Source: Nitrospina sp. (GTDB lineage: Bacteria; Nitrospinota; Nitrospinia; Nitrospinales; JACRGP01). From it: DNA of 64,000 nucleotides. Each line of letters begins with the position of its first letter. Positions within the stretch are counted from its first letter, which is position 1. The translations under genes and the position numbers were made by a program. This document shows, piece by piece, positions 43,492-49,877 of this stretch. The stretch is taken from positions 50,100-114,099 of the forward strand of contig JACAVV010000012.1 of assembly GCA_024648695.1 (NCBI GenBank), in the 5' to 3' direction. Under the pieces are notes generated by a model. That model saw nothing but the letters and a program-made list of their open reading frames with translations. It was not told the origin of the DNA and ran no database searches.

Positions 43492-44151
43492 ATGAAAAAA
43501 ATTGTTTACTATATAGCTTTTGGATCTGTTCTATTGATTGCCAACCAGGCTTTTGCGGCTGGCAACACAAGCTCTATGAATCAATCCGGTTCCAATAATA
43601 CAGGAATGATCGTTCAGGAAGGTGATAACAACAACGCAGAATCTATGACGGTTGGTGATGACAATATGGTGGATATTAATCAAAACGGGAACACAAATAA
43701 CGCCAATGTCGACCAGACCAACAACAACAATTCTGCCACCGTTGTTCAGGAAGGTGACGATAACGACGATGTCCTTGTTCAAGATGGTGACGATAACGAT
43801 TATGTCGGCAACCAGTTTGGTACCTCTAACGCCTCTTGGGGATTTCAAGATGGTGACGGGAATACCTATTACGTCAACCAGACTGGAAACGACAATATAG
43901 CCAACATTAATCAGATTGGAACCAATAACCATTCCATCTCCACACAAGATGGAGACATGAACAATGTTGATGTTCTTCAGGATGGGGATATGCATGATTC
44001 CGAGATTGAACAGTTCGGAAACATGAACGCCGCTACGGTAGAACAGTATGGCAATTTAAACGAATCCATGATTTACCAAACCGGCAACGAGGATACCAGT
44101 AACGTTTTTCAAAGCGGAACGGGTCACTCTTCTATGGTTTCCCAGCAGTAA
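43492..44151 (+). CDS. Curlin-repeat amyloid-like protein
   Basis: 219 residues. A signal peptide (about 1-23, cleavage after AFA) is followed by about nine tandem repeats of roughly 20 residues in the curlin style. Units contain N-x-G-x-x-N and V-x-Q or I-x-Q, e.g. MNQSGSNNTGMIVQEGDNNNAESM and VEQYGNLNESMIYQTGNED. Repeats are Asn/Gln/Gly/Asp-rich with two Trp/Tyr-containing units. CsgA-like proteins form extracellular amyloid fibres. None of csgB, csgD, csgE, csgF or csgG lies within the window, so export partners must be elsewhere. Strong terminator downstream. Confidence 0.88.
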   Translation: MKKIVYYIAFGSVLLIANQAFAAGNTSSMNQSGSNNTGMIVQEGDNNNAESMTVGDDNMVDINQNGNTNNANVDQTNNNNSATVVQEGDDNDDVLVQDGDDNDYVGNQFGTSNASWGFQDGDGNTYYVNQTGNDNIANINQIGTNNHSISTQDGDMNNVDVLQDGDMHDSEIEQFGNMNAATVEQYGNLNESMIYQTGNEDTSNVFQSGTGHSSMVSQQ

Positions 44152-44367: not shown

Positions 44368-44895
44368 GTGCAAACCCGTATTAATGACTGGGTCCTGTAC
44401 TCGGAGATTTGCTCTGCCAAATGCGAGTTCGAGTGGGTGGACTTAAACAAAATCATTCAGCAAGTCATTGAAGACTTACAGGATTCCATCGAAAAAAAAT
44501 CTGCCCATATCGAATGCCATACCCTGCCTGTCATAAAAGGAGACCCCACCCTCTTGTATCATTTGTTTTCTAATTTAATTGATAACGGTCTAAAGTTTGG
44601 CAAACCTGGGGAATTCTCCGAGGTGATCCTGGACACTCTTTCGAAAAAAGGCGGGTATTGGAAAACTTCGGTGGCGGATCGGGGTATCGGACTCGAAAGC
44701 AAGTTCATTCCTAAAGTTTTTGCCCCCCTGTTTCGGTTGCATTCCGGTTCGGAGTTTCAAGGAAACGGATTCAGCCTTGCGCTTTGCAAAAAAATAATGA
44801 CCCACCACGGGGGACAAATTACTATAGATAGCCTGGTAAACAATGGGACGATGGTTATTCTCACCTTTCCCGAGAATCCCCTCGCCGGGCAATAA
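44368..44895 (+). pseudogene. Truncated sensor histidine kinase (HATPase region)
   Basis: 175 residues: the C-terminal end of a histidine kinase. It has the second half of the dimerisation helix (QTRINDWVLYSEI, resembling the end of HisKA domains), then an HATPase domain with N box LFSNLIDNGLKFG, G1 box VADRGIGLESKF, F box FAPLFRLHS and G2 box GNGFSLALCKKIM. The phospho-acceptor His is absent and the frame is closed by a stop about 60 bases before the GTG at 44368, with no ribosome-binding site. It is a remnant or a non-phosphorylating ATPase fragment. Confidence 0.7.
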
Positions 44896-47071: not shown

Positions 47072-47809
47072 TTACAACTGCTCGGTGTAGCGCGCCACTT
47101 TTGTAACCACTTCCAGGAACCGGCCATAAAAAGCTTCGGCTTCTTCTGGAGACAAAACCTCTTGCGACTTTTTCAACTCCAAAGATTCATTCAATACAGA
47201 GGTATCCAAACCGATCAATTCTCCTGCTCTGCCGATCACCTCTTCCCTGGACGGCACCGTGTTTTCTGTCAAAGACAAAATCATTCTCAGCGTTGCCAAA
47301 AATTGGCCGGTGGAACGTGTGGCCTTTGCTATCAAGCCATTACCTGCGCTAGTCAGATAATGGCGTCTTAAACGCATCAACAGGTTTAAGGTTTCCTGCT
47401 GGCATCGCAACCGCAGAAACTGTTTATCTACCTCCAGGTGCTCCAGCACGTCCTGACCGACTAACACCTGATAGGATTCCTGCATGCTCAAAAACTTAAT
47501 AGGAAACACCTGAGTGGACGACTCGATCCCCGGCAAAGTCATGAATAATGGAGAAATCCCATAACGTCTGGATAATACCACAGGATCAAGAACCTTCTTC
47601 AAGGAAGACAGGTTGACATTTTCTAATACAATGAGCAGATTGATATCGCTCTTTCCAGGCTGAAAATCCGAACGCGCTCCGCTCCCGTAAAGAATAACCG
47701 ACTGCAAATTATCACCCAGCAGACTGCCAAGTTGTTCGGAAAATTCTTTAATCGAGGCTTGATGTTCACCTGGCAACTTTGTTTTCGATAAGTCTATTGA
47801 CGCTTGCAT
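47072..47809 (-). CDS. Nucleotidyltransferase-fold protein
   Basis: 245 residues from ATG 47809; the frame is open upstream but overlaps the radical SAM gene and carries no conserved residues there. Residues about 30-65 hold the MNT-type motif: VILYGSGARSDFQPGKSDINLLIVLEN. The GS and first Asp are present, but the second Asp of the D-x-D pair is Asn (SDIN), a form seen in other MNT-type proteins. A long helical C-terminal region follows. No HEPN partner gene is present next to it, so an MNT-HEPN toxin-antitoxin is not supported. Starts 23 bases after the rSAM stop. Confidence 0.8.
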   Translation of the reverse strand: MQASIDLSKTKLPGEHQASIKEFSEQLGSLLGDNLQSVILYGSGARSDFQPGKSDINLLIVLENVNLSSLKKVLDPVVLSRRYGISPLFMTLPGIESSTQVFPIKFLSMQESYQVLVGQDVLEHLEVDKQFLRLRCQQETLNLLMRLRRHYLTSAGNGLIAKATRSTGQFLATLRMILSLTENTVPSREEVIGRAGELIGLDTSVLNESLELKKSQEVLSPEEAEAFYGRFLEVVTKVARYTEQL

Positions 47810-47832: not shown

Positions 47833-48975
47833 CTACGTGGAAGTGGAAAGAGAGGTTTGCGAATCTTTTAACGCTCCCCCGTCTTTGGATGATGGCGATT
47901 GCCAGCACCCAGGGTCTTTCTGAAACGGATCGCCCGTCATGGCATAGGAAAGGCATTTCAATCCGCCCCGGCATAATTTATCGTAAAAACAACCCTGGCA
48001 CCCGTCGCTGGTGCGGGTCCGGTCCCTCAACTGTAAAAACTCCTCGCTGGTTTGATACAGCTTCGAAAGAGGTGTTTGCAAAACATTTCCAACTACAATG
48101 GGCATACGACGGCAGGGAAGTAAGTCCCCATTGGGCTGAATTGTGATCAAGCTGTCCCCGGCCGCACACTGGTAGGGTTTGCCATGCCCCACAAGAAATT
48201 GTAAAGCGCGGTGCATGGCAACTTGAGTTTTATTGAACCAGGCATTTTCGGATTCGTGCCGGGCTGATTCCATAACTTCAAAGTATTCCCGGGTCTCTTG
48301 AGGGTTTAAAGGTTCGGTTCCCGCATCGTGTCCGGATCCATTCGGAATGAAGCGGTCCGACCATATTTTAGACACTTTCAATTTGCGCCCAATGCGCGCG
48401 ACCTTGGGAAATTCACGGAAATTACCGCGATGGGCTGTAAAAGAAATCATGGTTGGAATCCCGACTCGAACCAGGGCTTTCAGAGCGGATACGGTTTGAT
48501 CGAAGTCTCCCTCCCCTCGAATGGAATCATGAACCTCTTTATCCCCTTCCATACTCACTTGAATGAAAGAAGGGTTCAGCGTTTTTAACCGTTGCGCCAT
48601 CTTCATATCGATGAAACTGCCATTGGTTAAAATCGCAAAACTGAATTGGTCCCGATTCTCCGCGAAAACTTCTAACAACCTCATAAAATCTTTATGAACG
48701 AAAGGTTCTCCACCGGTAATCGTGATGTGTCCTTTTAGCCCCCGCTTGTCATTTTGGATTCTCCAATCTGCCAGCAGGGTTTTGAATTGGTCCAGAATCT
48801 GTATCAAACCTTTAAAATTCAGTTCCTCTCCGCCATAGACTTCCTGATAACAGTGATTACAACGCAGGTTGCACCGTTCCGTGATGTGCCATTGAAACAG
48901 CAAACTTCCGGGAATGTAAGGACCGCCGCCACAAACCTCTTCAGAAATAAAGTTATTTTCGGTCAAAGGCATCAT
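47833..48975 (-). CDS. Radical SAM/SPASM peptide-modifying enzyme
   Basis: 380 residues. The start ATG at 48975 overlaps the stop of the upstream gene (ATGA), implying translational coupling. The longer frame upstream runs through the Gly/Cys-coding tail in another frame and is not real. The radical SAM motif is CNLRCNHC near residue 36, followed by the ITGGEPF segment. The C-terminal SPASM region has many Cys (CAAGDS, LLPCRRMP, GCQGCFYDKLC, GLKCLSY, GCW), so two extra 4Fe-4S clusters are likely. Such enzymes modify ribosomal peptides (thioethers, for example). The upstream gene encodes a Gly/Cys-rich tail. Confidence 0.9.
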   Translation of the reverse strand: MMPLTENNFISEEVCGGGPYIPGSLLFQWHITERCNLRCNHCYQEVYGGEELNFKGLIQILDQFKTLLADWRIQNDKRGLKGHITITGGEPFVHKDFMRLLEVFAENRDQFSFAILTNGSFIDMKMAQRLKTLNPSFIQVSMEGDKEVHDSIRGEGDFDQTVSALKALVRVGIPTMISFTAHRGNFREFPKVARIGRKLKVSKIWSDRFIPNGSGHDAGTEPLNPQETREYFEVMESARHESENAWFNKTQVAMHRALQFLVGHGKPYQCAAGDSLITIQPNGDLLPCRRMPIVVGNVLQTPLSKLYQTSEEFLQLRDRTRTSDGCQGCFYDKLCRGGLKCLSYAMTGDPFQKDPGCWQSPSSKDGGALKDSQTSLSTST

Positions 48976-49877
48976 CCGCCGCACCCTCCACATCCACCGC
49001 CACAACCGCCCCCGCCGCAACCACTTCCACTGCACCCTCCTCCCCCGCCACAGCCGCCGCAACCACCTCCCCAATAGTTGCTCTTGGAAAAAGCCTGATT
49101 GTAAGAGGAATAAAAAAGAGTGTTGGCTAAAAAGGCGGTTCCAAAAATGGCTACCGGCAATGCGGGATTAATTCCATCCGGCACTTTTCCAGTCTTCATT
49201 GAATTTTGTAACCATTCAAAATGCGATTGCAAGGCATCCAGATATTTCTTCCCAAGATTGGAAACTTTTTGATTCGGTTTAATGACAACAAAACAAAAAA
49301 TCACGGCAAGAATTAACAACACGACCAGAAAAAAAATAGGCCGGTCGTTGGAAATTCCCAGCAGAATTTTACTCACTCCCAATAAAAGGATCGCACCAAG
49401 GATAATCCAGGCCACTTTCCAGGCATGCGATTTTTGATCACGATCACGTATCAGATGAGATTTTTCCAAACGCGCATAATAAGGGTCCAGGATCTCATTG
49501 GCCTTGTTCATGAATCGTTTGTCTTTGAACAGGTCGGAGGTTTTGCGAAAAGACTTGAAAAAGTCCAGAACCAATATTTCCAACTGGCCGGAAACGTTTT
49601 GGCTAGAATGGGTGGCTTGCATTTCGGTACTTCTACCAGTATTTCGGCTTTCTAAGTGGTCATTAGACCAAAGGCTGAAAACGACGGTGCGAATAGCCGA
49701 TTCGGTACCGCGCATGGTGGCGATGGCAAGTGGATCAAACTCAGTCAAACTCGGCACGCGAAAACGCATCGTATCGTCGGAAGACCAAAACCGGCCTATG
49801 AAAAAAAGTACCAGCGTCGCTACGGTAAAGACGACCAGAAAGGTCGGCCCTGGAACCGATTCTATGAAATCAATCAT
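48972..49877 (-). CDS. TIGR04222-like membrane protein with Gly/Cys-rich C-terminal tail
   Basis: 301 residues from ATG 49877; upstream in-frame sequence is unconserved and overlaps purS on the other strand. The N-terminus (VPGPTFLVVFTVATLVLFFIGRFW) is the first TM helix, followed by FDPLAIATMRGTESAIRTVVFSLW, similar to the TIGR04222 signature. A pair of TM helices lies about 155-200. Residues about 270-301 are a tail of Gly and seven Cys, with CSGSGC in the middle. The tail lies directly before the radical SAM gene, suggesting it is the substrate. The tail's side of the membrane is not clear. Confidence 0.82.
   Translation of the reverse strand: MIDFIESVPGPTFLVVFTVATLVLFFIGRFWSSDDTMRFRVPSLTEFDPLAIATMRGTESAIRTVVFSLWSNDHLESRNTGRSTEMQATHSSQNVSGQLEILVLDFFKSFRKTSDLFKDKRFMNKANEILDPYYARLEKSHLIRDRDQKSHAWKVAWIILGAILLLGVSKILLGISNDRPIFFLVVLLILAVIFCFVVIKPNQKVSNLGKKYLDALQSHFEWLQNSMKTGKVPDGINPALPVAIFGTAFLANTLFYSSYNQAFSKSNYWGGGCGGCGGGGGCSGSGCGGGGCGGGCGGCGG

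Follow-up and report, generated by a model that had tools for sequence, protein, structure and literature searches.

The question raised by this locus is whether a peptide-modifying enzyme has an integral membrane protein's tail as its substrate. The window, the whole stretch of DNA analysed, comprises 64,000 nucleotides from Nitrospina sp. On its minus strand, from 49877 to 47072, three genes lie head to tail and encode a TIGR04222-family membrane protein, a radical SAM (rSAM)/SPASM enzyme and a nucleotidyltransferase-fold protein. The membrane protein ends in a tail of Gly and Cys. The probable answer is that the enzyme post-translationally modifies this tail, making the membrane protein a RiPP-precursor analogue that is full-length and not excised.

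The three genes and the tail

The membrane protein (48972..49877, minus strand, 301 aa) was assigned to TIGR04222 (near_uncomplex) using the NCBIfam model, which it matched with 87.9 bits against a curated cut-off of 43. Its plan was derived from hydropathy and a low-depth AlphaFold model, and consists of an N-terminal TM helix, a cytoplasmic winged-helix-like domain, a TM hairpin and a disordered Gly/Cys tail. The TM helices were placed at residues 10-38, 146-173 and 182-199. In the model, residues 239-263 form broken short helices and are followed by the disordered tail. A fold search with the model produced no significant match. Given three TM helices, the positive charges put the tail in the cytoplasm by positive-inside reasoning. 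This side is predicted and is not pressed here; the 239-257 stretch is mildly hydrophobic, and the tails of other TIGR04222 members have been put in the periplasm (PMC12452194).

The original prediction described a TIGR04222 membrane protein with a Gly tail of about 32 residues holding seven Cys. The translation agrees. The last 32 residues, GGGCGGCGGGGGCSGSGCGGGGCGGGCGGCGG (48975..49070, minus strand), contain 7 Cys versus 1 in the other 269 residues, together with two Ser, and are the proposed substrate. All Gly codons (4/4) and Cys codons (2/2) are in use, and Tandem Repeats Finder detected no tandem repeat in the tail DNA. The tail is therefore a maintained protein sequence rather than a recent microsatellite, and a chance or microsatellite origin was ruled out. 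Alignment with the relatives' tails revealed that CGGC...GGGGCGG[G]CGGCGG is kept and that the tail end, GGGGCGG[G]CGGCGG, is strongly conserved.

The tail stop overlaps the rSAM start by the predicted four bases, ATGA (48972..48975, minus strand). A ribosome-binding-like site, GGAGGG (48984..48989, minus strand), lies within the tail codons, 8 bases upstream of the rSAM ATG. The rSAM gene (47833..48975, minus strand) encodes the 380-aa enzyme proposed to modify the tail. Its expected classification as radical SAM/SPASM was confirmed with PF04055 (77.4 bits) and PF13186 (32.5 bits), both above the Pfam cut-offs. The CxxxCxxC of the radical SAM cluster (C35, C39, C42; 48850..48873, minus strand) and the seven Cys of the SPASM region (C270, C288, C326, C329, C335, C341, C357; 47905..48168, minus strand) are invariant in 6/6 aligned homologues. 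The radical SAM domain begins only about 25 residues into the enzyme, and neither the enzyme nor its neighbourhood gave a recognisable RRE domain.

The best NCBIfam models for the enzyme were rSAM_ACGX (TIGR04340), at 153.9 bits against a cut-off of 400, and SbtM (TIGR04082), at 143.9 bits against 350, which leaves the enzyme outside both families. By name, these nearest families act on peptides containing Cys-Gly (ACGX) or Cys/Sec (SbtM). The ACGX system resembles the present locus in that its substrate repeat contains Cys-Gly and its peptide gene lies directly upstream of the rSAM. It differs in that its presumed substrate is a small peptide rather than a membrane-protein tail, and the enzyme examined here falls far under its cut-off. 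SbtM is named for Cys/Sec (thio(seleno)oxazole) modification. The enzyme aligns only from position 201 of the SbtM model and thus lacks about 200 N-terminal residues that SbtM has. By sequence, the nearest solved structures are SkfB (6efn), PqqE and a CteB-type enzyme (5wgg). Sactisynthases and ranthisynthases such as SkfB and the CteB-type are likewise SPASM enzymes and join Cys sulfur to carbon, but they carry an N-terminal extension or RRE and act on small leader-core peptides.

The conserved third member (47072..47809, minus strand, 245 aa) follows after exactly the 23 bases predicted. Its nucleotidyltransferase fold was also borne out, with 23.0 bits to PF01909 against a cut-off of 21. 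Its structure model (pLDDT 77) gave ANT(4'') and AAD(9) as best Foldseek matches, with E values of 9e-5 to 5e-4 and a TM of about 0.5. An active nucleotidyltransferase would have a GS motif followed by [DE]x[DE]. In the GSGAR...SDIN motif (47639..47686, minus strand) D55 is kept, while the second Asp is replaced by N57 in 5/5 aligned homologues. Nucleotidyltransferase activity is doubtful because D-x-D reads D-x-N, and going by this motif the family may be a pseudoenzyme partner.

Co-occurrence of tail and enzyme

The first sample comprised 41 genomes, the window's genome and 40 relatives. TIGR04222 was found in 4/41, the window's genome and G006, G009 and G021, the latter three representing one genus of another family. 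The four TIGR04222 genomes have an rSAM match of at least 468 bits; the other 37/41 produced only background of about 105 bits or less. The same trio occurs in the same order in G006, G009 and G021. Identities to the window's proteins in these alignments are 34-37% for TIGR04222, 53-56% for the rSAM and 40-43% for the nucleotidyltransferase. A histidine kinase precedes the trio in these three genomes only, where full GAF-type kinases lie directly upstream. The window has a short histidine-kinase C-terminal fragment at 44368-44895.

The original prediction turned on whether tail and enzyme occur together in other genomes, and across the phylum they do. TIGR04222 was found in 5/77 genomes, the same 5/77 carry the rSAM, and the remaining 72/77 have neither. 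The rSAM scores exceed 450 bits in the five genomes, and the next best among the 77 is 139 bits. For independent genomes the odds of a 5/5 coincidence would be 1 in 20 million, but these genomes are not independent. The independent lineages behind the pattern are few, namely three genera in three families, plus G384, which is described below.

TIGR04222 and the rSAM are adjacent in 4/5 of these genomes and lie on separate contigs in one, G043, from another family of the class. G043 has the rSAM and nucleotidyltransferase genes on one contig and TIGR04222, with the tail GGCGGCSGCSSGCSSGCSSGCSSGCGGGCGGCG, on another. GC is near 0.48 on both contigs. This case is somewhat weaker because the bin is 6% contaminated and one contig could be foreign. 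The nucleotidyltransferase gene is linked to the rSAM in 5/5 genomes with rSAM and TIGR04222. It accompanies the rSAM in G043 as well, away from the tail gene, which ties it to the enzyme. A plasmid tblastn found no close relative of the rSAM (best 30%) and none of the TIGR04222 protein.

Related enzymes and related tails

The rSAM clade appeared once more among 387 broadly sampled genomes, in G384 (458 bits), a genome without a TIGR04222 match. Directly upstream of the G384 rSAM are two RiPP-like peptides of 56-58 aa with Gly/Cys ends (GGGGCGCGCG). The full sequences, MDEVTRDGKRAYAAPRVLATYSKEELEEAIRPHGAVDSYTNDGGGGCGCGCGCGCGAG and MERDFKKLYVKPMVLATYSKEELEETIKPHGSVDSYTDGGGGGCGCGCGGGSILQN, are alike in leader and tail, and the peptides end in DGGGGCGCGCGCGCGAG and DGGGGGCGCGCGGGSILQN. 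The cluster (L049:1-9400) has a RiPP-like look, with two rSAMs, an NTP_transf_5 protein (175.9 bits), ABC transporter genes and an S24/S26-like protein. In a maximum-likelihood tree, which leaves out the G021 enzyme, a branch with 100/99 support separates the tail-associated rSAMs, including that of G384, from the others. A single rSAM clade thus has two kinds of neighbour, small Gly/Cys-tailed peptides and a Gly/Cys-tailed membrane protein, and this is the strongest single argument for the tail as substrate. Together with the co-occurrence in three genera it supports the predicted substrate, and we infer that the rSAM acts on the tail, which stays attached and works in place.

A RiPP in the strict sense has a short leader precursor that is modified and cleaved. 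The 301-aa membrane protein does not fit this description, the trio includes no protease, and short precursors were found only at the sister locus in G384.

A search of G384's relatives and phylum yielded nothing further. Several other candidates were rejected. The enzymes of G077, G188 and G325 (about 230 bits) have no adjoining Gly/Cys-tail gene and fall outside the supported clade. A match on an Indioceanicola plasmid (L043) lies with a PqqD chaperone and two more rSAMs, and has no annotated Cys/Gly tail gene. A pattern scan of genome contigs with the rSAM, using patterns that were too narrow, returned only one distant Butyrivibrio rSAM with nif11-like peptides. At that locus (L013) two nif11-like leader peptides with Cys cores come after the rSAM.

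The tail type also occurs with an enzyme of another kind. TIGR04222 is a frequent neighbour of MNIO enzymes, and TIGR04222 tails have been proposed as MNIO substrates (Microb Genom 2025, PMC12452194). The main text of that survey does not name radical SAM as a TIGR04222 partner. In G338, a TIGR04222 protein with the tail GGGCGGCGTGWSGGCGCCSGSSGSSCGSGCSSGCGGGCGGGCGG overlaps an MNIO gene (PF05114, 242.9 bits) by ATGA. Ten Cys-tailed TIGR04222 loci were examined in G338's phylum (149 genomes), which is a different phylum from the window's. MNIO (DUF692) directly follows the tail gene in 8/10, several with the ATGA overlap. The other 2/10 (L064 and L066) are second TIGR04222 paralogues in G545 and G546 with no MNIO within about 1.4 kb; both genomes carry MNIO genes elsewhere. 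TIGR04222 matches without a Cys tail in this phylum, several of them truncated or marginal, have neither enzyme adjoining.

The MNIO loci and the present locus are alike in membrane-protein family, in Gly/Ser/Cys tail type, in gene order and often in the ATGA overlap with the following enzyme. They differ in that here the enzyme is a radical SAM/SPASM protein, unrelated to the iron oxidase MNIO, and a nucleotidyltransferase-fold gene is added. The Cys-containing low-complexity tail of the MNIO systems is present, but MNIO is found neither beside the gene nor elsewhere in the genome. PF05114 had no match in six rSAM-clade genomes, including the window's genome (G000), G006, G009, G021 and G043, and the MNIO genomes tested had nothing above about 117 bits for the rSAM clade. 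No description of an rSAM version of TIGR04222 tail modification was found in the open-licence literature searched, including under TIGR04340, ACGX and DUF2207 with radical SAM. The original prediction held that a membrane-protein tail would be an unusual target. This is qualified by the TIGR04222-MNIO pairing, which is known already, and by the proposal that other TIGR04222 tails undergo MNIO modification (PMC12452194); the novelty appears to lie in the rSAM version.

The reading that best survives beside modification of the tail, though we give it only a small share of the probability, is that the tail stays unmodified and its Cys bind a metal or Fe-S cluster directly. The rSAM would then modify a cofactor or another protein, and the membrane protein would be an anchor or metal donor. 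Cys/Gly tails alone can bind metals, the Cys-tailed L064 and L066 have no directly adjoining enzyme, and many TIGR04222 genes in the MNIO survey are without MNIO (PMC12452194). Against this, peptide-modifying enzymes of two unrelated families are found in the same place after the same tail type, the sister rSAM of G384 adjoins small peptides with that tail type, and a scan of the window found no other Gly/Cys-tailed ORF.

It is improbable that the true substrate is a small unannotated peptide and that the TIGR04222 protein, with a tail imitating that substrate, is a partner for immunity, export or sensing. The small precursors of G384, beside the same enzyme clade, favour such an arrangement. 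When the window and the relatives' neighbourhoods were scanned for C-termini rich in Gly/Cys/Ser, only the membrane-protein tail was found, at a threshold that also missed the G384 peptides. That the genes are chance neighbours and the tail low-complexity drift is very improbable, for although DUF2207-type proteins commonly have low-complexity Gly tails, this idea is opposed by the mixed synonymous codons, the conserved Cys spacing and the conserved trio, and is refuted in substance by the phylum counts, in which tail and enzyme co-occur even when unlinked.

Possible chemistry and role

If the tail is modified by the rSAM, the enzyme would reach it on the cytoplasmic side, where an oxygen-sensitive enzyme could work. 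With its full set of SPASM Cys, the rSAM might abstract hydrogen from a Gly C-alpha and join Gly to Cys sulfur in a thioether, or it might oxidise Cys. These products are guessed because Gly and Cys are nearly all that the tail contains. The nearest structures (SkfB, PqqE and CteB-type) and the place of Gly among known thioether acceptors (PMC8326336) make a Cys-to-Gly thioether possible. This remains a guess to which no sequence feature specifically points; oxidised Cys is a possible alternative product. The rSAM could also target other parts of the membrane protein. The nucleotidyltransferase-fold protein is a conserved partner and may serve in docking or in a second modification. MNIO enzymes make copper-binding bufferins, and by analogy the modified tail may bind a metal.

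RRE domains are winged-helix-like. A more elaborate and tentative proposal, which we regard as rather less likely to hold than not, is a membrane-tethered, non-cleaved RiPP-like system. The winged-helix-like domain of the membrane protein would be a recognition element in cis, and the rSAM would cross-link the tail. Such a system would have arisen by convergent recruitment, with either the rSAM replacing MNIO or the membrane protein replacing a small peptide.

If modification of the tail by the rSAM is correct, then MNIO and radical SAM/SPASM, enzyme classes that are chemically unrelated, were both recruited to act on one tail type in a single membrane-protein family. The modified tail, and not one chemistry, would then be under selection. 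Peptide-maturase rSAM chemistry would be extended beyond small precursors to an integral membrane protein's tail, and an rSAM clade so far without an assignment would gain a testable substrate. The comparison of rSAM with MNIO tails, and of membrane-anchored with free-peptide substrates, would be a natural route to what TIGR04222 proteins do.

Two further observations were made. The window encodes a secreted protein of Gln-, Gly- and Asn-rich curlin-like repeats at 43492-44151. In G362 (L061:6560-9561), a DUF2207/TIGR04222-like membrane protein has a Cys tail of the form (CHSA)n, and its gene overlaps that of a different rSAM/SPASM enzyme, extended at its N-terminus. This is a second, independent pair of membrane tail and rSAM.
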